Virus record (IMG/VR): IMGVR_UViG_3300044961_000404
Location: 1-31,419 of that record
Source of the DNA: a virus
Strand: one strand, 5' to 3'
DNA length: 31,419 nt
The position numbers and the translations under genes were made by a program. The notes beneath the pieces were generated by a model. That model searched no databases. It was not told the DNA's origin and was given only the letters and a program-made list of their open reading frames with translations. This document shows positions 13,815 through 23,313 of this stretch, piece after piece (the first letter of the stretch is position 1; every line of letters begins with the position of its first letter).

Positions 13815-14321
13815 CTACACCGAGCGGATGCCAAACTGGGCGAACGTCGCGCTGCCGCGGATCACGCCGCTGGTCGCTCCGGACGCCGGGCCCGTCTGCA
13901 CCGAGAGAATCAGATTCTTGTTTGCTGTGTAGGAAACGGGCAGCGACCCGTAGACCGCGCCGCCGGCCACCGTGCCGGATCCGGTGGTTACCCCTACGGC
14001 AGAGCTGAAGCGGCCAGCGACCTGACCGATACTGCCAGACCCTCCCGATCCTGGCGCAACGAAGCGCGCCAGATTGTCGTCGTCACCGAGCTGAAGCACC
14101 AATCCAGATCCGCTATCCAGGTCGGGAATATCAACGGAGAATCCCAGCAGGGTGAATCCCGGCAGATTCTTCCCCTGTAGCGGCATGAGCAGGATTTGGT
14201 CGTCTACCGCGAGCGCCGCGGTCACGGTGAAAATGAAAGTTCGAGCCACGACGATCCCGGCGCCGGGCGCCTCGCACATGGGCTCGGTTTTGTAATTATC
14301 CGAGTAATAAACCGTGGGCAT
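13815..14321 (-). CDS. beta-rich head decoration or head-associated protein
   Basis: A 168-residue protein with mostly beta-strand character: ARTFIFTVTAALAVDDQILL, FTLLGFSVDIPDLDSGSGLV, NKNLILSVQTGPASG, and a Gly/Ser/Thr-rich middle. A strong GGGGAGGA lies upstream of the ATG at 14321. It follows the major capsid gene directly. In genomes with N4 gp56-type capsid proteins a beta-rich protein of similar size often occupies this slot, so a capsid decoration or head-fibre role is likely but inferred. Confidence 0.65.
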   Translation of the reverse strand: MPTVYYSDNYKTEPMCEAPGAGIVVARTFIFTVTAALAVDDQILLMPLQGKNLPGFTLLGFSVDIPDLDSGSGLVLQLGDDDNLARFVAPGSGGSGSIGQVAGRFSSAVGVTTGSGTVAGGAVYGSLPVSYTANKNLILSVQTGPASGATSGVIRGSATFAQFGIRSV

Positions 14322-14348: not shown

Positions 14349-15224
14349 TCACGACGGAGCGTTCCAGGTCGATACGACGATGGTGCCAAAGTCCTGGTTG
14401 TTAAACCGGGTCTTTTTCAAGCCCCAGATCATGCCGGCGGTGATTCGCAGCTGATTGCCGGCATCGAGGAGCTCTTCGTACCAGTTCACCTTCAGGGCTT
14501 CGCCGCTTTGTGCCTTGTCCGCGCCGCAGGCAAGAGCCGCGGCTTGGGCGCCGACGAAAACGGCGCGACCAACATTGGTGGTTCCCGCCGCCGGCGCGCC
14601 GAGGCACGTCGGTGCAGCCACCATCGTTCCGCTCAGGGGATCGAGCACCATGTTCTGCGAGCTATCCCCCCACGGGCAGCGCGTGTCCTGGTGCAGCACG
14701 ACGTTGTTGATCATCCCGATGGCCCCGGTGAAAATCGGATTGCCGGTGACTTGTCCGCCCTGCAATGCGGCTCGATAGATGTCACCCCACTCGCCCTGCG
14801 TGTAGTTCGTTTTGAGATCGCGCACCTGCTGCGCCGTCAGGAACAGCACGCCTGCCACCTCGATGCCCTTGATCAACACCGGCTTGATGGGGAAGATCAG
14901 CTCGCCCTGCGCCTTGGCGACGATGGCCGGAATCAGGTCCACCGAAAACACATCGGCGCTCGTAAGGGCGGCTTCATTGGCGGCGCCGCCAGCGAGAATC
15001 CAGTGATCCGCGTCGGGCGCAACCGGCGCCTGGAGCCCGGTGTAGGCGACGTTGGTCTGTGCAGTGTTGCCGGCCAGCTGGTTGAGAAGGCCAACGTCCA
15101 TCATGTCTTTCCACCAGTTGGCCAGACCGGTCTTGGCCGCATCGCGCATCGAATAGGGAACTCTCTGCTGCGACATGCGGCCAACGAGGAGCATCGCCTG
15201 CCGCTGTTGATTGATTACCAATGT
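14349..15224 (-). CDS. major capsid protein, N4 gp56 family, exon 2
   Basis: Downstream exon of the split major capsid gene; it contributes 291 residues after splicing. The sequence begins TLVINQQRQAMLLVGRMSQQ and continues RVPYSMRDAAKTGLANWWKD, the conserved core of N4 gp56-type capsid proteins (Pfam DUF4043/Phage_capsid_3 as I recall it). Further on, GNPIFTGAIGMINNVVLHQD is another family hallmark. Without splicing this segment would have to begin at a TTG with no Shine-Dalgarno and would lack the N-arm, so it is an exon and not a complete gene. Joined to exon 1 it gives 383 residues, close to the 401 of N4 gp56. Confidence 0.9.
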   Translation of the reverse strand, partial: TLVINQQRQAMLLVGRMSQQRVPYSMRDAAKTGLANWWKDMMDVGLLNQLAGNTAQTNVAYTGLQAPVAPDADHWILAGGAANEAALTSADVFSVDLIPAIVAKAQGELIFPIKPVLIKGIEVAGVLFLTAQQVRDLKTNYTQGEWGDIYRAALQGGQVTGNPIFTGAIGMINNVVLHQDTRCPWGDSSQNMVLDPLSGTMVAAPTCLGAPAAGTTNVGRAVFVGAQAAALACGADKAQSGEALKVNWYEELLDAGNQLRITAGMIWGLKKTRFNNQDFGTIVVSTWNAPS

Positions 15225-15279
15225 CTTTACTGTTCAGCGCCCGTCGCCAACGGACACCCGCTTCTTTTCATGAAGCAGC

Positions 15280-15879
15280 TCAACATTTCTGCTGAGAACG
15301 GACCATATCATCGTCCACAGAACGAGGACGCAACGCGCTTCCGGTGACAGTCGCTTTCACCGTACTCCCTTTCGGGATGGCCTCTGAACCTTCCAGATGA
15401 GGACAAATTCCACCGTTAAACTGACGCCCCATATTGCAGTTGTGGCAAAGCACCCGGAGAGTATCCGGGAAGTTGTTGTCGATGATCCACAGAAGGAACG
15501 GTAGTCCGCTGTGTGGGTGCTGCGCTCCACGCGCCTTGCCACCATCGTTGTTGACATGATCGATGGCAAGAAATTGAGTAGTCCGCTCACTACAGCAAGA
15601 ACATCCACCACCGTAAGCAGCAACGATGGCACGCCGAAGGATACGATACTTCGGCTTGGTCCTAGTCTCGGCGTGTTTGCGTGTGAGTGATCTCCAGCGT
15701 TCGTAATTTGCTTGGCGCCACCGTTCGGTTCGTGCGGCATTGCAGGGCTTGCAGAAGTGTCGGCGGATATGCGGCTTCTCTCGATCGACCATTGGGAAGT
15801 CGACGAGTGATTTGGTTTCGCCACAGTCTTTGCAGAGTCGATTGCTCATCTGGCTTGGCTGCTGATTACCTTCGTTCAT
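15280..15879 (-). CDS. HNH homing endonuclease encoded in the intron
   Basis: A 199-residue protein. The N-terminal zinc site has Cys16/Cys19 (CKDCGETKSLVDF) and Cys43/Cys46 (HFCKPCN). A second Cys cluster (CSCC, 93-96) leads to the HNH core AIDHVNNDGG (Asp107, His108, Asn111), and the helix that completes the fold ends LRVLCHNCNMGRQFNGGICP. This is a common phage HNH endonuclease type, which cuts intronless alleles and copies the intron by repair. The last 40 or so codons run through the intron core, and the stop lies in the P9-like hairpin. The Shine-Dalgarno is weak, so expression is probably low. Met11 is an alternative start. Confidence 0.9.
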   Translation of the reverse strand: MNEGNQQPSQMSNRLCKDCGETKSLVDFPMVDREKPHIRRHFCKPCNAARTERWRQANYERWRSLTRKHAETRTKPKYRILRRAIVAAYGGGCSCCSERTTQFLAIDHVNNDGGKARGAQHPHSGLPFLLWIIDNNFPDTLRVLCHNCNMGRQFNGGICPHLEGSEAIPKGSTVKATVTGSALRPRSVDDDMVRSQQKC

Positions 15880-15940: not shown

Positions 15941-15969
15941 GCCGGTTACCCGACGTAGGGACCACATTG
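15941..15969 (-). promoter_or_regulatory. 5' splice region with P1/P10 guide and P2 hairpin
   Basis: The first 29 intron bases hold the guide sequence. CAAUGU (15969-15964) is complementary to the start of exon 2, GUCC (15962-15959) to the end of exon 1, and the hairpin GUCGG-GUAA-CCGGC follows. Unspliced message reaches an in-frame TAA here, after seven intron-encoded residues. Confidence 0.8.
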
Positions 15970-16245
15970 ATCCTGGAAGTAGCTGTACGGCACTTCCTGC
16001 CCGGCGATCGGAGCATCGCCGAGAACACCGGGGCCCTGCGGATTGGTAATCAGATCATACTTTACCTGATCGCCGGGGCCCTTACTGGGTTCGTCGAAAT
16101 ACTGAACGAAGTTCGATTGATCCCTGGCGTTCAGCCCCACCGCCATGAGCTTGGCAGCGGTGCATGACCGCAGGGCCTGAAAAAACACCCGATGGCTGTA
16201 AATGACAACAGCGGTCGGGTCATTCGCTGGAACGACGGTTTCCAT
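15970..16245 (-). CDS. major capsid protein, N4 gp56 family, exon 1
   Basis: Upstream exon encoding the first 92 residues (METVVPANDPTAVVIYSHRV through EVPYSYFQD). The pattern GPGDQVKYDLITNPQGPGVL followed by GDAPIAGQEVPYSYFQD matches the N-terminal region of N4 gp56-like capsid proteins, where GD-x-I-x-F-x-L, then G-D-x-x-L-E-G-x-E and F-x-x-D occur in this order. Read through into the intron, the frame adds only QCGPYVG and stops. The ATG at 16245 has GGGAG about 10 nt upstream. The gene has its own candidate promoter in the 383-bp gap upstream. Confidence 0.9.
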
Positions 16246-16491
16246 GCGCCATGTTCTCCCTGAAATTAACCGTTGCGTCGCGGCGTCAATTCAGGCCCGC
16301 GACTCGCCTGCACATCATCGCGCTCGCCGGGTCGCGATGTCCCCGTGTAGGCTTTGATCGGGAGAGGCAGCCCACCTGGCCTCGCGCATGGTTGTTTTCG
16401 CTGTCTATGTCAGCGCCGCCGCTTGCTCACCGGGGCCGGCGGATCCCCGAAAGCGTGGATTTGGGCAGCGCCACGCACCGCTGATTGATTC

Positions 16492-16521
16492 CTACTACCG
16501 CACGGCGGCGCGATTTGTCAA
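16492..16521 (-). promoter_or_regulatory. candidate sigma70-like promoter for the capsid gene
   Basis: TTGACA at 16521-16516 is a perfect -35 box. After 18 bp there is TAGTAG (16497-16492), a weak -10. It points toward the capsid gene, and its -35 overlaps a palindrome. Plausible but unproven because of the poor -10. Confidence 0.4.
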
Positions 16522-16530
16522 CTTAAGTTG
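16519..16530. promoter_or_regulatory. 12-bp perfect palindrome overlapping the -35 box
   Basis: CAACTTAAGTTG is a perfect palindrome whose left arm overlaps three bases of the TTGACA box on the minus strand. A dimeric regulator bound here would compete with or touch RNA polymerase. Which protein would bind is unknown. Confidence 0.4.
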
Positions 16531-16532
16531 GC

Positions 16533-16572
16533 GCGTGGCGCCCCGAGCGCTGGGCGGCGTGGGGCGCCACGC
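16533..16572 (-). terminator. strong 12-bp-stem hairpin between cassette and capsid gene
   Basis: GCGTGGCGCCCC (16533-16544) and its exact reverse complement GGGGCGCCACGC (16561-16572) flank a 16-nt loop. No T-tract follows on the minus strand, so it is not a textbook intrinsic terminator. It may be an attenuating or message-stabilising hairpin that separates the secreted-protein genes from the capsid gene. Confidence 0.45.
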
Positions 16573-16628
16573 TTGCGCTACGCCCGGTCTTTCGTGGGGG
16601 GGTCGCCGAGCATAGCATCCTGTCGGCG

Positions 16629-18260
16629 CTAAGGCGCTATGCGCGCTTTCGCATCCGGAACGCGGTCTATCCACGCGGTAGTGGCGGCATCGCCACTACA
16701 GTTGGCAACTTGCCCAAAACACGATTCGTAGTCTCCTAGCCACGTCGCTGCGCCCGGACATGAAATCGGAGAGCTTACTGGTATCGGCGTTCCCTGCCAC
16801 GGCCCGCTGTGGGCGTAACAGAAGAACTGCACTTGCGCCGCGCCCGAACCAAAATTTTGACAAGTCCCGGTTTTTACGTCGCCAAACGTGTCACTATATC
16901 CGGGCACCGGCGTCCCGAACGCCATGGGCGTCGGTGTGCTCAGGCACGGCGCGTTGCAGAGGGTCAGGTTCGGGCGCCCGCGGCGGTCGTTGGCGGGCGG
17001 GCAAGTGGGGGTTGGGGTTGTCGTAGCGGTCGCCGGCACGGCCGCCGTATGCGTGCGCGTTTGGGTCGGGGTGGGTGTTCGCGTCGGTGTCAGCGTAGGT
17101 GTCCTAGTGATCGTATTCGTAGGCGTGTTGGTTGCAGACGCGGCTGGGGTCGACGTGGCGGTCGGCGCCTCGCCGCAGGAGCTACCGGGTTCGAGTGGGG
17201 CGCCGATGCAAGCTTCTCCCGCATGCCACGTGCCACCAGAAGCGTCGCACGTCGCTTCGTCGATAATCGTCTGGTTGCTCCCGACGCACGTCGCGCCGTC
17301 GCCGAAATCCCCAGCGCAGCAACCGACTTCTGGTGACGCTACGCACGCCCCAAGCAGCTCGGAGCACTGAGCGCCGAGGAGCCAGTCGCTACCCGGGAGG
17401 CATCCATCAGGCCCGGATAGGTCCTCACAAGATACTTCCCGCTGGCAGCATCCAGATCCAGCGACGCAAGTATCCCCGACGCAAGTTTCGTTTACATGAA
17501 ACACCCCCGGCGGAGCGCAATTATCGCCCGGCCCCATCGGCGAGCAGGCCCCTTCCCCCTGGCAACAGCCATATGCCGGCAGCGGCGTTGGCGTTGGCGT
17601 CTGCGTCGGCAGAGGCGACGGCGTCAACGTCACGCAATTCCCCGGACCCACCCCGCCTTCAGCATTGCAAAGCGCATTAGGAAAAAACGTTCCGCCAACG
17701 GAATCGCAAAGGGACTCCGTAAGCTGCGCGCAGTTTCCTTCGGTGTCCTCGCAGCAACTATTCGGCGTCTGGGTCGGCGTGGCCGCTGCGACCGTGATGG
17801 AGCCGTCCTCCGTGGAGCACGACACGGGGCCGCCGGAGTCCTCTAGCACGCAGCCACCCGAGACAGGCGGAGAGCAACCACTAGCGTCGAACTCCACGGG
17901 GCTAACGCCAATGTTATCTCCATTAAACGACACAACGGCCAGCTCGGCATTGGGTACGTTGATCGGCGTCACGCAAGCAATCGCAATGCAGATCTTTCCC
18001 GCGACTAGCGTATTCGCCGAGAACAAACACCCGGCGCTACTGGCGTCAGAGCCAATCAGGACCGTACCAACGGAGACAATCGAAATGTCGTAGCTCAATC
18101 CCAGATCGTAAGCGTTGATCGTGCTGGAATCATCGACCCGCACGGATACGTTCGCTGAGCCACCCAGGGCTAGGGTCTGCGTCGCTGGGTCAATGCTAAC
18201 CGTCACCGCAGCGGCAGTGTTCGCTAACAGCGCACCGAGCGCCACGATCAGCCGTCTCAT
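16629..18260 (-). CDS. secreted cohesin-like / Cys-repeat / Thr-Pro protein
   Basis: A 543-residue protein. The ATG at 18260 was chosen (over one 39 bp upstream) because it overlaps the LamG gene's stop as ATGA and gives a Sec signal peptide, MRRLIVALGALLANTAAA. Residues about 19-160 resemble a cohesin-type beta-sandwich (VSIDPATQTLALGGSANVSV, NAYDLGLSYDISIVSVGTVL). Then come several Cys modules of the CC-x-C-x-C-x3-GG-x-C type (for example SCCEDTEGNCAQLTESLCDS), separated by Thr-Pro linkers. A long Thr-Pro linker and a Cys-containing C-terminal domain of about 110 residues end the protein. That last part is homologous to the end of the 245-residue gene product upstream. This is host-like extracellular architecture and unusual in a phage head cluster. 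Function unknown; adhesion or surface decoration is a guess. Confidence 0.8.
   Translation of the reverse strand: MRRLIVALGALLANTAAAVTVSIDPATQTLALGGSANVSVRVDDSSTINAYDLGLSYDISIVSVGTVLIGSDASSAGCLFSANTLVAGKICIAIACVTPINVPNAELAVVSFNGDNIGVSPVEFDASGCSPPVSGGCVLEDSGGPVSCSTEDGSITVAAATPTQTPNSCCEDTEGNCAQLTESLCDSVGGTFFPNALCNAEGGVGPGNCVTLTPSPLPTQTPTPTPLPAYGCCQGEGACSPMGPGDNCAPPGVFHVNETCVGDTCVAGSGCCQREVSCEDLSGPDGCLPGSDWLLGAQCSELLGACVASPEVGCCAGDFGDGATCVGSNQTIIDEATCDASGGTWHAGEACIGAPLEPGSSCGEAPTATSTPAASATNTPTNTITRTPTLTPTRTPTPTQTRTHTAAVPATATTTPTPTCPPANDRRGRPNLTLCNAPCLSTPTPMAFGTPVPGYSDTFGDVKTGTCQNFGSGAAQVQFFCYAHSGPWQGTPIPVSSPISCPGAATWLGDYESCFGQVANCSGDAATTAWIDRVPDAKARIAP
16901..17087 (-). repeat. 187-bp direct repeat, copy 2
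   Basis: Base-for-base identical to 19549-19735 and in the same orientation. It encodes the Thr-Pro linker end and the start of the C-terminal domain (PANDRRGRPNLTLCNAPCLS and onward). Sequence outside the block diverges abruptly, although the proteins remain homologous downstream. Confidence 0.95.
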
Positions 18261-19033
18261 AACCCACCGAGCTCCAGCTCGCTGAGGGCGCGGCTCCACA
18301 CGCGCACGTCACGCATCCGCCCGAAGAAGGGGTCGTAGGGACCGCCCTGCGTTGGCGGCTCGGCTCCGACGTAGATCACCTGATCTCGGGTGATCGGGCT
18401 GAGCTGCGCGGCCATCTGCTTGCGGCGCATCAGGACGCCGTTGACGTACAGCCGCAGATCGAGGCCGTCCACCGTGACGGCGATGATCTTCTCTGCGTCC
18501 AGTGGCCACTCGAAGAACGTGAATACAGTCTCGTTCATGTTGTCCACTGGATTCACCGGCTGCGTCGGCGGCACGGAACCGACGTTCGCCTGCGCAATCA
18601 CGTTGACCACACGTGGCCACTGGCGCATGGTCACGCCGATCGAGAAGCGCGGCAGCAGTGGCGACTCGCCGCCGAGATAGAACAGCACCTGCGTCGAGGA
18701 TGCCAGCGATCCCAGCGCGACGCGAAACTGTACCGTGAACGGCGGCTCCAGCGTTGGCGCAGGCACCCTGAGCCACGACGGCCCGCGGCGATGGAACGTG
18801 CCGCCCGCAGGACCAAACTCGATATTGTGCGCGCCGGCAACGGCTGCCGTTAGCGAGTAGTCTAGCAACAGGCTGTGGTCTACGCCAAGACAGTCGATGT
18901 TGTCCAAGCGCGCCGCGAGGCTCCGCAACTGTCCAGCGATCTCCGGGACCGTCAGTGGCTGACCCTGCACCAGGGTCGCCGGCAGGAACAGCGCGGCACC
19001 GGTCAAGCCAACGACACACTGGCGCAGGGTCAT
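18257..19033 (-). CDS. secreted LamG/concanavalin-like lectin domain protein
   Basis: A 258-residue protein with a Sec signal peptide (MTLRQCVVGLTGAALFLPAT then LVQGQ). The remainder fits a LamG/concanavalin A-like jelly roll: PFTVQFRVALGSLASSTQVL as inner strands, EKIIAVTVDGLDLRLYVNGV with the usual 'DG..L.LYVNG' hallmark, and the closing GRMRDVRVWSRALSELEL, typical of LamG-3 type domains. Such domains bind glycans or proteins. GAGGTGA lies just upstream of the ATG. Its stop overlaps the next secreted gene's start. It could decorate the virion or the infected cell surface; a signal peptide favours export from the cell. Confidence 0.8.
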   Translation of the reverse strand: MTLRQCVVGLTGAALFLPATLVQGQPLTVPEIAGQLRSLAARLDNIDCLGVDHSLLLDYSLTAAVAGAHNIEFGPAGGTFHRRGPSWLRVPAPTLEPPFTVQFRVALGSLASSTQVLFYLGGESPLLPRFSIGVTMRQWPRVVNVIAQANVGSVPPTQPVNPVDNMNETVFTFFEWPLDAEKIIAVTVDGLDLRLYVNGVLMRRKQMAAQLSPITRDQVIYVGAEPPTQGGPYDPFFGRMRDVRVWSRALSELELGGL

Positions 19034-19051
19034 CTCGTCACCTCTTTTCGG

Positions 19052-19258
19052 CTACTCTCCCGCTTTTCCCAAGAACGAAAGCGTCGAGCCATCCGTGAAC
19101 TTGATCTCGATATCCCGCACGTCGGGATCATTGAGATAATCAGGATGATGCCTCGCCCGGAGGTAGAACGTATTCTGTGGTTGGATGAAGTAGTGCGTTT
19201 CGATCTGGTTCTCGTCCGGCACTGTCACTAAGTGCATCCCGGGTCCTTCTGCTGCCAT
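19052..19258 (-). CDS. 68-residue hypothetical protein
   Basis: A small protein (MAAEGPGMHLVTVPDENQIE through TDGSTLSFLGKAGE), with AAAGGAGAAGG well placed before the ATG. The pattern suggests a small beta-rich domain (THYFIQPQNTFYLRA, DIEIKFTDGSTLSFL). It has no signal peptide, unlike its three neighbours. No family recognised. It could be a virion protein left in its original place when the cassette was inserted. Confidence 0.65.
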   Translation of the reverse strand: MAAEGPGMHLVTVPDENQIETHYFIQPQNTFYLRARHHPDYLNDPDVRDIEIKFTDGSTLSFLGKAGE

Positions 19259-19282
19259 TGCCTTCTCCTTTCGTCCCTTGCT

Positions 19283-20020
19283 TTACGGAGCAACCGGAGC
19301 CACCGCGTCCGGAAGCCGATCTACCCACGCATTGGTTGTTGCCGAGCCCGCGCACGACGACACTTTTCCGAAGCATAGCTCGAAAGTCCCTTCCCATGTC
19401 GCACTGCCCGGGCATGAAATCGGAGTAGTGACCGGAATCGGCGTCCCTTGCCACGGACCGGCGTGCGCGTAGCAGAAAAATTGCACCTGCGCCGTCCCGG
19501 TGGATTGGCAAGTGCCGGTCTTGACGCGGCCGAATAGATCATTGAAGGCGGGCACCGGCGTCCCGAACGCCATGGGCGTCGGTGTGCTCAGGCACGGCGC
19601 GTTGCAGAGGGTCAGGTTCGGGCGCCCGCGGCGGTCGTTGGCGGGCGGGCAAGTGGGGGTTGGGGTTGTCGTAGCGGTCGCCGGCACGGCCGCCGTATGC
19701 GTGCGCGTTTGGGTCGGGGTGGGTGTTCGCGTCGGGCTATTGGTAAATGTGAAGGTTGGTGTTCGGGTTGGGCTGCGGGTGCTGGTATGACTGAACGTTG
19801 GCGCGGACGTTTGAGTGATGGTTGGCGTGCGCGTGGGCGAATTGGGGATGGTATTTGTAGGCGTGTTCGTGGGGGACGGCGCCGGGGTATGGGTCTCTGT
19901 CGGCTCCGGTGTATCGGTCGGCGTTTGCGTTGGTTCCTCGGTTTCGGTTGCGGTTTGCGCTAGCGCTACACCTGCCAGGAACGACAGAGCAATGACTGTC
20001 AGTATCCAGCGCTTCGTCAT
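19283..20020 (-). CDS. secreted Thr-Pro-rich protein with Cys C-terminal domain
   Basis: A 245-residue protein with a clear Sec signal peptide (MTKRWILTVIALSFLAGVAL, then AQ). Residues about 23-125 are a continuous Thr/Pro/Ser-rich linker of TPT, TNTPT and TRTPT units. The last 115 residues form a Cys-containing domain (LTLCNAPCLSTPTPMAFGTP, KTGTCQ, VQFFCYAHAGPWQGTPIPV, ISCPGSATW, CFGKVSSC) homologous to the end of the 543-residue secreted protein. Part of the match is DNA-identical over 187 bp. AGGGAGAAGG precedes the ATG. Thr-Pro linkers normally hold surface domains away from the cell wall. Function unknown. Confidence 0.8.
   Translation of the reverse strand: MTKRWILTVIALSFLAGVALAQTATETEEPTQTPTDTPEPTETHTPAPSPTNTPTNTIPNSPTRTPTITQTSAPTFSHTSTRSPTRTPTFTFTNSPTRTPTPTQTRTHTAAVPATATTTPTPTCPPANDRRGRPNLTLCNAPCLSTPTPMAFGTPVPAFNDLFGRVKTGTCQSTGTAQVQFFCYAHAGPWQGTPIPVTTPISCPGSATWEGTFELCFGKVSSCAGSATTNAWVDRLPDAVAPVAP
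19549..19735 (-). repeat. 187-bp direct repeat, copy 1
   Basis: Identical to 16901-17087, 2648 bp apart, same orientation, in the 245-residue secreted protein gene. Perfect identity next to diverged flanks points to recent gene conversion or recombination between the two paralogous ends. Confidence 0.95.
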
Positions 20021-20033
20021 GGCCTTCTCCCTG

Positions 20034-21140
20034 CTACGCTAGGCGCGTATGCCAATTTGGGTCGGCGCGATCCATCTTCTCGATGTACTCCGCCCGCGCC
20101 TCTGGGTCCATCGCCATCAGGTCGGCGCGGCTCTGGATGCGCGGGGGCGGGGCGCTACCTGTGCGCGCCATGGCCTGCACCGATGATGCCGCCGTAGCGG
20201 CCTGCTCGGCGCGCACCCTTTCGGCCGCCGAGACAGCGGCGGCAGGGGCCGCGCCGGCTCCATTGCGCGCGTTGCCGTTCCCATTCCAGCCCATGAGTTG
20301 CGCCTGCGTGTAAACCACCTCGGCGGGATTGCGGCCGAGAACCCGCGCGCCATTGATGAGCCTTTGCCGGCGCTCCTCGAATAGCACCTCAAAGGCGATG
20401 CGTTGAGAAGCTTCGTCCTCCGTGATGCCATGCTGTACAGCGGCCTGTCGGACAATCTGCGGCACCCTCTGTCGGATCTTGAGCGCAGCGTCGGCGAGCT
20501 CGCCGCTCTCTTGGGCCCGTCGCGTTTCCTGCTCGACGTAGAAATTGAACGCCTGGGGATAATCTGGGTGCTGCTGGGTAAACGCTGCGGCCTGCTGAGC
20601 AAGCGCCGCCTCTTCGGCTTGCCTAGCCAGTTGCGCTTCGAGTTGGGCGATGCGCTGGTTTTGCTGCTCGATGGGATCCGCCTCGACCGCCTCCTGCTGC
20701 CAGCCGGGCTGCTGCTCGCGAGCCAGCCGCTCTTGCTCAATCGCCTGAAGCCTTCGTTCGAGCTCAAGGGCGCGGGCGCGTTCGGCCAAGAGCTCCTGCT
20801 CGGCTGCTTTCTTCTGGCGCTCGATCTCTCGGAGCTGCTTCCAGCTCAACGGCCGCTGCTGCTGTTGCTGCTCTGCCTGCGGCCCCGTGGCGGCCTCGGT
20901 TGCCGGCGGCATGGCGGGCGCAGGCGGCTCCGGCGCTGCGCCTGCGGCGCTGCTTGGATCTTCTGCCCCCTCGGCCGGTTGCGCCGCGGGCAATTCACCA
21001 TCGGCTACGTCGAGCGCTTCCTCGCGCTGCACCGGTTCCGGTTGTGAATCGCGCTGCGTAAGCTCGGCCGAATGCGCCGGAAAACGCTGCGCCAATTCAT
21101 CCATCGTTGCACGCTCCATCTCCTCGAATGGATCAGCCAT
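20034..21140 (-). CDS. capsid scaffolding protein
   Basis: A 368-residue, very charged protein rich in Glu, Gln and Ala. Residues about 85-225 form a long predicted coiled coil (RPLSWKQLREIERQKKAAEQ through QLEAQLARQAEEAALAQQAA). The C-terminus (PEARAEYIEKMDRADPNWHT) is a short helix-turn of the type that contacts coat protein in scaffolds. Low complexity, high charge and position directly after the portal gene (8-bp overlap) are standard for podovirus scaffold genes. Normally the coat gene follows directly; here a 3.8-kb cassette intervenes. Confidence 0.8.
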   Translation of the reverse strand: MADPFEEMERATMDELAQRFPAHSAELTQRDSQPEPVQREEALDVADGELPAAQPAEGAEDPSSAAGAAPEPPAPAMPPATEAATGPQAEQQQQQRPLSWKQLREIERQKKAAEQELLAERARALELERRLQAIEQERLAREQQPGWQQEAVEADPIEQQNQRIAQLEAQLARQAEEAALAQQAAAFTQQHPDYPQAFNFYVEQETRRAQESGELADAALKIRQRVPQIVRQAAVQHGITEDEASQRIAFEVLFEERRQRLINGARVLGRNPAEVVYTQAQLMGWNGNGNARNGAGAAPAAAVSAAERVRAEQAATAASSVQAMARTGSAPPPRIQSRADLMAMDPEARAEYIEKMDRADPNWHTRLA

Positions 21141-23313
21141 CGTTCCTCCCGCTGTTTTGCTTGGCCAGCCGCTCCTGGTGCTTGGTGATGATTTCCATCA
21201 GGTCAGTGACCAGCTGGGCCTGCGCCTTGCTGCGCTCCATGTCCTGGCGCGTCGCTTCTAGAATTGCTCGCTGCTGCGCTTCTCTGGCTTCGGTAGAAGC
21301 GCGCATATCTTCGCGGCGAGCCCCGGAAACGATCTCCGCCGTGCGCGCCATCTCTAGCTGCGTTTGCGCCTTGAGCTTGTCGATTTTGGCCTGCGTCTCG
21401 CGCGGATCTTTCGGCGCCCCGCGTCCGTGCAGGTTGATTCCCATCTGGGCCGCCATCTCGTTGCGCTTGCGCTCCTCCATCATCCCCTGAATGATCTCCT
21501 GCCTGACTTTCACCGGGAAAGGCAAGTAATTCAGCATCGATGGGACGAACATGCCCATGCGCGACAAGTGCGGAGCGATCTGCATTAGGAATTGCGAATA
21601 CTGCTGGCGCAGCATCGGGTCCTGATCGGTGTCGTCAATAATGACATCGTACTCCAGGGAGAACGGCTCCCGAAGCAGCTTGATCGTTTCCGGGCCATAG
21701 TCGCCAGCCACGCGAATGAGGCGCCCATCGGCAATCAATCCCAGGAAGGCAGCGATGGTCCTCGCTTCATCCTCGGTTCGATAGCGAGACAACGAGTCGA
21801 ACTCGTGGGCGAGAAGGACCTGGCTGATGTGCTGTCGCTGGCGCATCATCTGCGCCGGCATCTCCCCGCCACTGGCGCTCTCCAAGCCAAGGCTCGTCAT
21901 CGATAGGCCGGTGACCTGCTCCATCGATCTGATGCACCACTCCAGCATCGTCATCGTCGCCGGTGGAATGCTCGGGGCCTGCTTCTCCTTGAAGCGGCCT
22001 TCCGCTAGGGCGCCGTGGGAGACCTCGTTCACCGACCCTGGTTGGCTATAGGTTTGCTTGAAGGCGTCGCGCTGCGCATTGTCGTCGAAAGCGGTGGTTT
22101 CTACGATGGCACCCCCCTTGGCGCTCACCGCGATAATCTCGATCAGTTGATTGAAGAATTTGTTCGCGTAGCGCTGCGGATCCATCAGCAAGCGCACGAA
22201 GCCATACCATTGCCGAGAGTCCTCGTCGTAGTGGCCCGTCATGAAGTTGAGGGTGAAGCGATCGCCGGGCAGTCGCTTCGGATCCCCCAGCATGTACTGG
22301 CGATCGAGAACGTATGCGCTGCGATAGACTCGGTGATTGGCGCGTTCGGCTAGTATGCGCACGTTGGGCGACAGGATCTGGAGCTCGCGCTCGTAGCGGC
22401 GGAATTCCTCCTCGTCCATCCAGACGTATTCGCCGGTGACCGGATCACGAAAGGAGCGGCCCTCTTCGTCGGATACGTATTGAAACTGCATCAACTTGAC
22501 CTTGTTGCGCAACGACGGGTCTCTGCGGGCTTTGTCGATAGGCTCGGTCTCGATGTAGTCCACCGTGTACCAGATTTGCGATGGCCCGGGCGGGAAGGCT
22601 CGCTGCTCCCGCGCCGCGCCTATTGCTTCGATCAATCCCGCGTACTTCGGGAATTGGCGAATCGCATCGGCCTTATCCACCTCCGCCTCGCGGGCGCGCC
22701 AGCGGGTGGTGCGAAGGTTCTCGTCGGAGCAGTCCGGCCAGATGCACTCCATCGGCGAGATGCGCACGTGCTGGATCAGGCCGCGCGGGTCGCGCTGCTT
22801 GTCTAGGTACGTCTCGGTGCATCCGATACCTGTGATGAGCAGATCCTCGAATGCGCGCGAACGTTCGTAGGAGCCCCCGCAACGAGACATCGCCCATTCG
22901 TAACCCTGCGTCAGGTATTCGCCGAAGCTCTGCTGTTGCAAGTTGTCGATGATCGCTGGCTCGAAGCGAAGCGCGCGGGGGGCCCGACGCTCGATCCCCG
23001 ATACATAGCGCACAAACTTTTGAACCGAATTGAACGCCGTGTCCGGGCGCTTATTCATGCGCAGGACGCGGCGCGTTTCGGCGTCGTACTGATCTCCCGC
23101 AACGAATCGATAGGCTTCGCGCGCGTTGTTGACGAACGTCGTGCGCGCATCATTCTGTGCGGCAACCTCCCGCAGGATCCAGCGCAGCAGTTCTTCACCA
23201 CGCGACGGCGGCTGGATCGGCGCTGGGCGCTCGTTCGTGGCGCGGCTTTCGTCGATTTTGTCGCCGACCTCCACTGATGACTTGGTCGCATCGAAGAGCG
23301 GTGTCGTTGCCAT
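21133..23313 (-). CDS. portal protein, P22 type
   Basis: A 726-residue protein, almost the length of P22 gp1 (725). Family features include an N-terminal helical block (FVNNAREAYRFVAGDQYDAE), the segment RPDTAFNSVQKFVRYVSGIE typical of P22-like portals, GYEWAMSRCGGSYERSRAFE, IGCTETYLD, and a long C-terminal helical region (QAKIDKLKAQTQLEMARTAE) corresponding to the portal barrel. The dodecameric portal sits at one capsid vertex, is the DNA channel, and docks TerL during packaging and the gp4-like adaptor afterwards. The Shine-Dalgarno is weak (GAGAG). The gene is separated from terL by an oppositely oriented ORF. Confidence 0.9.
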   Translation of the reverse strand: MATTPLFDATKSSVEVGDKIDESRATNERPAPIQPPSRGEELLRWILREVAAQNDARTTFVNNAREAYRFVAGDQYDAETRRVLRMNKRPDTAFNSVQKFVRYVSGIERRAPRALRFEPAIIDNLQQQSFGEYLTQGYEWAMSRCGGSYERSRAFEDLLITGIGCTETYLDKQRDPRGLIQHVRISPMECIWPDCSDENLRTTRWRAREAEVDKADAIRQFPKYAGLIEAIGAAREQRAFPPGPSQIWYTVDYIETEPIDKARRDPSLRNKVKLMQFQYVSDEEGRSFRDPVTGEYVWMDEEEFRRYERELQILSPNVRILAERANHRVYRSAYVLDRQYMLGDPKRLPGDRFTLNFMTGHYDEDSRQWYGFVRLLMDPQRYANKFFNQLIEIIAVSAKGGAIVETTAFDDNAQRDAFKQTYSQPGSVNEVSHGALAEGRFKEKQAPSIPPATMTMLEWCIRSMEQVTGLSMTSLGLESASGGEMPAQMMRQRQHISQVLLAHEFDSLSRYRTEDEARTIAAFLGLIADGRLIRVAGDYGPETIKLLREPFSLEYDVIIDDTDQDPMLRQQYSQFLMQIAPHLSRMGMFVPSMLNYLPFPVKVRQEIIQGMMEERKRNEMAAQMGINLHGRGAPKDPRETQAKIDKLKAQTQLEMARTAEIVSGARREDMRASTEAREAQQRAILEATRQDMERSKAQAQLVTDLMEIITKHQERLAKQNSGRNDG

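Follow-up and report, generated by a model that had tools for sequence, protein, structure and literature searches.

Predicted exported proteins with a common C-terminal domain encoded between the scaffold and coat genes of an uncultivated phage

What are genes for apparently exported proteins doing in the head module of a phage? The question is raised by the IMG/VR virus record IMGVR_UViG_3300044961_000404, analyzed here over its 31,419 nucleotides (hereafter, the window). Between the scaffold gene and the coat gene of this virus lie genes for a protein with a Thr-Pro (T/P) stalk, a 68-residue protein, a protein with a LamG domain and a Cys-rich protein (Table 1). Three of these four proteins carry predicted signal peptides, and two of the three end in a common C-terminal domain (CTD) that recurs in two related phages. 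We put at about one in two the probability that the phage encodes them as accessory proteins for export, which would act on the envelope of its infected host cell or beyond it. Accessory proteins that phages export are already familiar, chiefly from isolated genes for lysogenic conversion or exclusion; what is new here is a domain without a family name and the uncommon location of the genes within the head module. The literature that we searched, mostly at the title and abstract level, describes no exported proteins encoded between scaffold and coat genes, which does not establish that they are absent from print.

Signal peptides in the scaffold-coat interval

Signal peptides were predicted with a home-made rule that scores a charged n-region, an uncharged h-region and a cleavage site of the A-x-A type, with a scan cut-off of 4.5. 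When each of the 29 window genes is read from its own start, exactly three are signal-positive, namely, the T/P, LamG and Cys-rich genes, and the gene for the 68-residue protein is negative. Thus, 3 of the 4 genes in the interval score, against 0 of 25 elsewhere in the window (Fisher p 0.001); among the annotated coding sequences of four reference phages, 1 of 60 does. Shuffling of residues 2-35 matched the observed score in 0 (T/P), 13 (LamG) and 110 (Cys-rich) of 2000 trials, so that the Cys-rich signal peptide is the weakest of the three. The predicted cleavage sites are ALA|Q, VQG|Q and AAA|V, and the T/P signal peptide with its cleavage reads MTKRWILTVIALSFLAGVALA|Q. Export of the three proteins is thus a supported prediction of the sequence rule.

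By this rule, the content of the interval is what a first-pass annotation, made from the sequence alone, had described: three signal-peptide proteins and one 68-residue protein without a signal, in 3.8 kb between scaffold and coat (3.79 kb, from the scaffold end at 20034 to the start of coat exon 1 at 16245). The accompanying premise, that the two genes are normally adjacent, holds only roughly. The median portal-to-coat distance among 74 relatives is 1.9 kb, but 17 of the 74 exceed 4 kb; the portal-coat stretch is therefore an insertion-prone place, and the size of the interval alone is unremarkable.

A common C-terminal domain and gene conversion

The T/P and Cys-rich proteins end in one common domain of 124-126 amino acids (aa) with 77% identity, or 81% when the end of the stalk is counted in. 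The earlier treatment of the three exported proteins as carriers of unrelated domains is thereby ruled out. A tract of 187 bp with sharp borders, which covers the stalk and the beginning of the domain, is identical in the two genes (Table 1). Within it, the 36 CTD codons show zero differences, and beyond the border the proportion of synonymous differences (pS) is 0.80, that is, saturated, with a nonsynonymous proportion (pN) of 0.21. Because the identical tract adjoins a half with saturated synonymous change, the two window CTDs are old paralogues under purifying selection that have undergone recent gene conversion of the stalk and the domain start. The two CTDs of one related phage, L013, contain no conversion-like tract, the longest common run being 13 bp. 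Across CTD paralogues and orthologues, pN/pS is 0.26-0.59 with synonymous change near saturation, which shows that the CTD protein is kept by selection. Seven Cys residues, at CTD positions 3, 18, 22, 50, 62, 82 and 95, are invariant in all five CTDs; together with the T/P linkers, they would suit an extracytoplasmic setting.

Neither the T/P protein nor the CTD belongs to a Pfam or NCBIfam family, in agreement with the first-pass statement that no named system matches this set, and the CTD appears to be a compact module absent from the family libraries searched. PHROG 15511 was tried as a family for the T/P and CTD proteins and rejected, the match being weak and the same PHROG also covering plain T/P stretches in unrelated proteins. 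Of the domain labels originally given to the other proteins, LamG stands (Laminin_G_3, PF13385; 49.3 bits against a curated cut-off of 27.6, residues 183-254). The cohesin-like label of the Cys-rich protein falls below threshold (Cohesin, PF00963; 16 bits against the Pfam cut-off of 24.1, E 0.014), and phmmer found no cohesin among solved chains. The Cys-rich protein thus consists of a signal peptide, a sub-threshold cohesin-like beta domain, four CC-containing Cys repeats, a T/P stalk and the CTD. Its gene most likely starts at ATG 18260, which overlaps the LamG stop (ATGA) and yields 543 aa, because a GTG start giving 556 aa would leave 13 residues ahead of the signal peptide.

Recurrence in related phages

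A first portal search, from which the best 80 of 367 confirmed loci were taken, was followed by a clade-level search that delineated nine distinct viruses including the window, with portal identities of 36-52%. CTD proteins are encoded in three of these, twice in the window, twice in L013 and once in L016. Every one combines a signal peptide with a T/P stalk and has the CTD as its C-terminal end, and in all three viruses a T/P protein gene begins no more than 30 nt after the scaffold gene. The tripartite signal is kept in 5 of 5 CTD proteins while the signal sequences differ; one of them, L016a, scores 4.06, under the 4.5 cut-off. L016 encodes a second protein with a signal and T/P, without the CTD.

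More broadly, proteins with a signal and a T/P stalk are found in five of the nine clade viruses (the window, L013, L016, L015 and L102), not in L014, L095, L096-098 and L099. Downstream of coat, L015 (16554-17199) and L102 (17567-18209) share a conserved pair of small signal-bearing genes, of which the second encodes a T/P tail at its end. The other gene of the pair, the first, has a weak tail fibre PHROG match (E 0.001) in the L015 copy only, and this copy has no match in named phages. The portal-coat interval of L102 also contains one signal-bearing gene and one lipoprotein-like gene, and L095 has a gene with a hydrophobic N-terminus after the scaffold. No gene with signal and T/P was called in the interval of L014, L096-L098 or L099, and the more distant portal-family loci examined encode no such protein on the sense strand.

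The search of related phages that had been proposed for these domains found the CTD in L013 and L016. The CTD was not found in named phages, in plasmids or in a collection of 84,980 species genomes, where a pattern search of limited sensitivity gave 49 candidates with 0 confirmed; nor did the portal-clade alignment, used as a host search, give a confirmed match in that collection. These results bear on the possibility that the genes came from a host as secreted passengers (morons) that play no part in infection; adhesins or matrix proteins would be examples, acquired from a bacterium whose proteins abound in T/P linkers and Cys repeats. The layout recalls bacterial secreted proteins with T/P linkers, and the CTD and stalk recur across phages behind N-terminal parts that vary, as such an origin might predict. 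Given the lack of a CTD relative in the genomes and plasmids searched, and the fact that three divergent viruses have all retained the genes, at one locus and with purifying selection acting on them, we regard passenger status as unlikely. The moron described in PMC5567305 is of the regulator type and unrelated.

Predicted fold of the CTD

Two AlphaFold2 models, of the T/P copy in the window and the second copy of L013, were built from five-sequence alignments; both are beta-sandwiches of medium confidence (predicted local distance difference test, pLDDT, 70.7 and 71.5). In the first model, the 36 residues in the converted tract are largely poorly predicted (block pLDDT 44, 55, 67 and 67), and therefore the conversion spared the well-folded part of the domain. 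Foldseek against the PDB returned nothing at E 0.001. In a second fold comparison, YomS is near the top for both models (Z 8.7, 90 residues, 2.9 A; Z 8.5, 91 residues, 2.4 A), and the XepA C-domain matches the first (Z 9.0, 91 residues, 2.5 A) and is not among the 50 matches listed for the second. Next in rank are protease and carbohydrate-binding domains, then GOLD domains and the jelly-rolls of phage heads. BFVD, a viral structure library, yielded a single match below E 0.001, to a protein without a name. A profile search of solved structures matched nine chains to the CTD at E up to 1, with neither XepA nor YomS among them; Cyanovirin-N chains are a weak sequence lead (E 0.046-0.98, the lowest being the best profile match), and none of them is among the 50 matches listed in each fold comparison. 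We take the CTD to be a small binding-type beta-sandwich, as modeled, and no more.

The nearest solved folds, YomS and the XepA C-domain (SP-beta and PBSX prophages), suggest one alternative, namely, that the proteins are exported late and help lysis, as proposed for XepA of PBSX, whose PDB title is PBSX exported protein. The relationship would be one of predicted fold, at Z 8.5-9.0, without detectable sequence similarity to the CTD. To our knowledge, XepA has neither a T/P stalk nor a Sec signal, and it is encoded in the lytic cassette, unlike the genes described here, which lie in the head module. According to PMC6834076, XepA forms a pentameric two-disc assembly, is cytotoxic to Bacillus and has been proposed to act on the membrane; the same text indicates that this activity needs both domains and that YomS, the closer fold, is not cytotoxic. 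A role in lysis thus appears improbable.

The phage jelly-rolls further down the lists are relevant to a second alternative, under which the stalk and the beta-sandwich knob would form a head or tail fibre or another virion decoration, with the hydrophobic N-terminus being an attachment segment or simply tolerated; such a protein, if exported, would join virions after lysis. In both CTD models there is a resemblance to the jelly-roll of the BPP-1 cement protein (Z 6.9 and 5.8) and to a capsid protein of Vibrio phage VP1 (5.7 and 5.3); BFVD offers a collagen-repeat phage protein (TMq 0.61, E 0.02). The beta-sandwich and the place beside the coat gene are likewise common to BPP-1 cement and jelly-roll head decorations, but the similarity to these amounts to a Z of only 5.8-6.9, and we know of no export of the BPP-1 cement protein. 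Virion decoration also sits poorly with the fact that all five CTD proteins retain an N-terminus of the signal type and an A-x-A-like site, the rest of the signal being different, and with the assembly of tailed-phage heads in the cytoplasm. Moreover, the position after the coat gene, the usual one for decoration genes, is already taken by a small gene (13815-14321; homologues in L015, L016, L095, L096 and L099). The location of the genes between scaffold and coat speaks for virion fibres or decorations, which are the main alternative, though one that we consider clearly less probable than action at the cell envelope.

Possible function of the exported proteins

Under the reading that we favor, accessory proteins exported by the phage, the three proteins would be made with the head proteins in the late phase, and each would pass through the host Sec pathway and lose its signal peptide. 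Two would be built of a signal peptide, either no further domain or a swappable Cys-rich or Ig-like domain, a T/P stalk and a Cys-containing beta-sandwich CTD, and the third would carry a lectin-like LamG domain. Outside the cytoplasm, presumably with disulfides formed, the stalk could space the domains, and the CTD and LamG could attach to some component of the envelope or matrix of the cell. The infected cell would then most plausibly have its surface occupied or altered, with the effect that it shuts out further phages or that virions, once released, are not wasted on debris; superinfection exclusion and surface or glycan binding would be the likeliest roles. The first-pass proposal of exported binding proteins expressed with the coat gains from the signals in 5 of 5 CTD proteins and the signal plus T/P proteins of L015 and L102 as far as export is concerned; exclusion, surface modification and decoration are not separated by any of our results. 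A more speculative elaboration, which we hold to be a minority possibility, is a surface-display family in which the new CTD serves as the docking or anchor module, the N-terminal domains vary across phages, conversion homogenizes the stalk, and the proteins coat the cell during assembly. Should export and surface action be correct, virion production in an uncultivated phage clade would include a remodeling of the exterior of the dying cell.

The closest functional analogs appear to be the Ltp-type superinfection-exclusion lipoproteins of phages TP-J34 and TP-778L, with the Ltp-like gp41 of Cutibacterium acnes phages. In PMC11480721, these are described as phage-encoded proteins with a signal peptide, a disordered stretch and a globular C-terminal part outside the cytoplasm, as predicted for the window proteins. 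In contrast, Ltp is a lipoprotein, its target is the tape measure protein, and the phages that encode it are temperate and infect Gram-positive bacteria, whereas the window proteins lack a lipobox (no Cys at +1), are not known to target a tape measure protein and are encoded in the head module. Because this defining lipobox is absent, they are not filed under Ltp: the window proteins might work like it, without membership being implied.

Several observations weigh against export and action at the cell surface. When raw open reading frames (ORFs) of at least 80 aa are counted between portal and coat in 75 loci, the sense strand yields 11 signal-positive ones out of 330 and the antisense strand 14 out of 346; with no sense excess, the rule alone does not discriminate on arbitrary ORFs. 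(The 75 loci derive from 81 with portal and coat, after L003, L013, L016, L092, L093 and L100 were dropped as redundant; the near-duplicates L096-L098, L079/L080 and L085/L086 were retained.) None of the three window proteins has a lipobox or a C-terminal anchor, which leaves retention on the cell unexplained. The window LamG and the N-terminal part of the Cys-rich protein were found in no other virus searched, nor was LamG found in the named-phage search. The medium-confidence CTD models rest on five sequences, and Z scores of 8-9 are barely above the 7-8 typical without a clear relative. Finally, T/P and LamG occur together without export: a 688-aa protein of L007 (316-2382) has T/P linkers and LamG_3, like the window set, but no signal peptide, and matches a PHROG of virion structural proteins, in line with the virion-decoration alternative. 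In jumbo phages, according to PMC7824862, Laminin G3 lectin domains go with tail fibres and further parts of the virion.

Very large T/P-rich proteins without a signal are also encoded by L007 (5027-17905, 4292 aa) and L004 (5436-9128, 1230 aa), the latter with a match to reprolysin-like metallopeptidases (E 6e-6).

Genome organization

The window represents a single virus record with coding mainly on the - strand, in the 5'-to-3' order replicative helicase-like gene (a label assigned by eye), terminase, P22-type portal, scaffold, the interval and the coat gene, which belongs to the Phage_capsid_3 family. Named phages with a related portal show 27-29% identity over most of the protein, and a fifth match shows 23%. 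Contigs L003 and L008 belong to the same virus (~99.9% identity); L003, from another sample, contains the whole interval intact, and L008 reaches it only at the contig edge. Neither Pfam nor PHROG gave a match to the scaffold itself, which is identified by its place and by homologues with 27-40% identity at the same position in relatives.

Table 1 Features of the scaffold-coat region of the window
Feature	Coordinates	Strand	Remarks
Terminase	25370-23910		
Portal	23313-21133	-	P22_portal, E 5e-62
Scaffold gene, immediately preceding the exported genes	20034..21140	-	Place after portal; homologues of relatives at same place
T/P protein, 245 aa: signal peptide, T/P stalk, CTD	19283..20020	-	Homologues at same place in L013 and L016
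187-bp tract, stalk and first 36 CTD residues	19549..19735	-	Identical to 16901-17087
CTD copy 1, 124 aa	19286..19657	-	AlphaFold2 model
68-aa protein without signal peptide	19052..19258	-	Strong ribosome-binding site
LamG-domain protein, 258 aa, predicted signal peptide	18257..19033	-	Laminin_G_3, E 7e-13
Cys-rich protein, 543 aa	16629..18260	-	ATGA overlap with LamG stop
187-bp tract	16901..17087	-	Identical to 19549-19735
CTD copy 2, 126 aa	16632..17009	-	77% identical to copy 1
Gap before coat gene, 383 bp	16246..16628		Perfect 12-bp inverted repeat
Coat gene exon 1	15946..16245	-	
Coat gene exon 2	14349..15221	-	After group I intron carrying HNH gene

Ribosome-binding sites precede the T/P, 68-aa and LamG genes, and the Cys-rich gene overlaps the LamG stop. 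The 68-aa protein has no Pfam or PHROG match. An autonomous moron would have its own promoter and terminator; over 16200-21300, a search with the sigma-70 consensus found 0 sites resembling promoters, against 0.7 expected, and a search for terminators found 3 candidate sites, against 4.5 expected, with none of either above chance in the gap before the coat gene. The inverted repeat in this gap (arms 16533-16544 and 16561-16572, 16-nt loop, without a T-run) may form a hairpin with a role in processing or regulation. For calling gap genes, a filter based on the codon usage of the portal gene was dropped, as it rejected the homology-supported T/P genes and those of L013 and L016.

Four relatives have, between portal and scaffold, a gene for a 422-447-aa protein that the window lacks (L013 9872-11179, L014 3721-5064, L015 9962-11260, L016 9811-11079); it looks ATP-grasp-like to us, and the one copy checked has no Pfam match. 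After the last exported gene, L013 (15860-16153) and L016 (within 14955-15488), but not the window, encode a conserved protein of about 97 aa without a signal (motif FPPGSRWxLR), whose L013 copy has no Pfam match.

Interruptions of the coat gene

The coat gene of the window is split at 15950-15225 by an intron carrying an HNH gene, flanked by coat profile positions 1-88 and 88-355. The Rfam model Intron_gpI matches here over its full length on the - strand, but with 21.5 bits (E 0.005) it falls short of the gathering score, which is 50. Matches below the gathering score are also present in L094 (17522-17763 and 18203-19037; 38.7 and 35 bits, full length) and L101 (17088-17120; 23.3 bits, 3' end only). 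In L096, the coat ORF has a frame break with an HNH gene after it, and L097 has neither; comparison of the coat genes does not show these two to be the same phage with and without a coat intron. The coat gene of L013/L094 is interrupted at profile positions 124/126 and 264/261 and that of L016/L101 at 133/130, so that one coat gene has four interruption sites across three phages, including the window.

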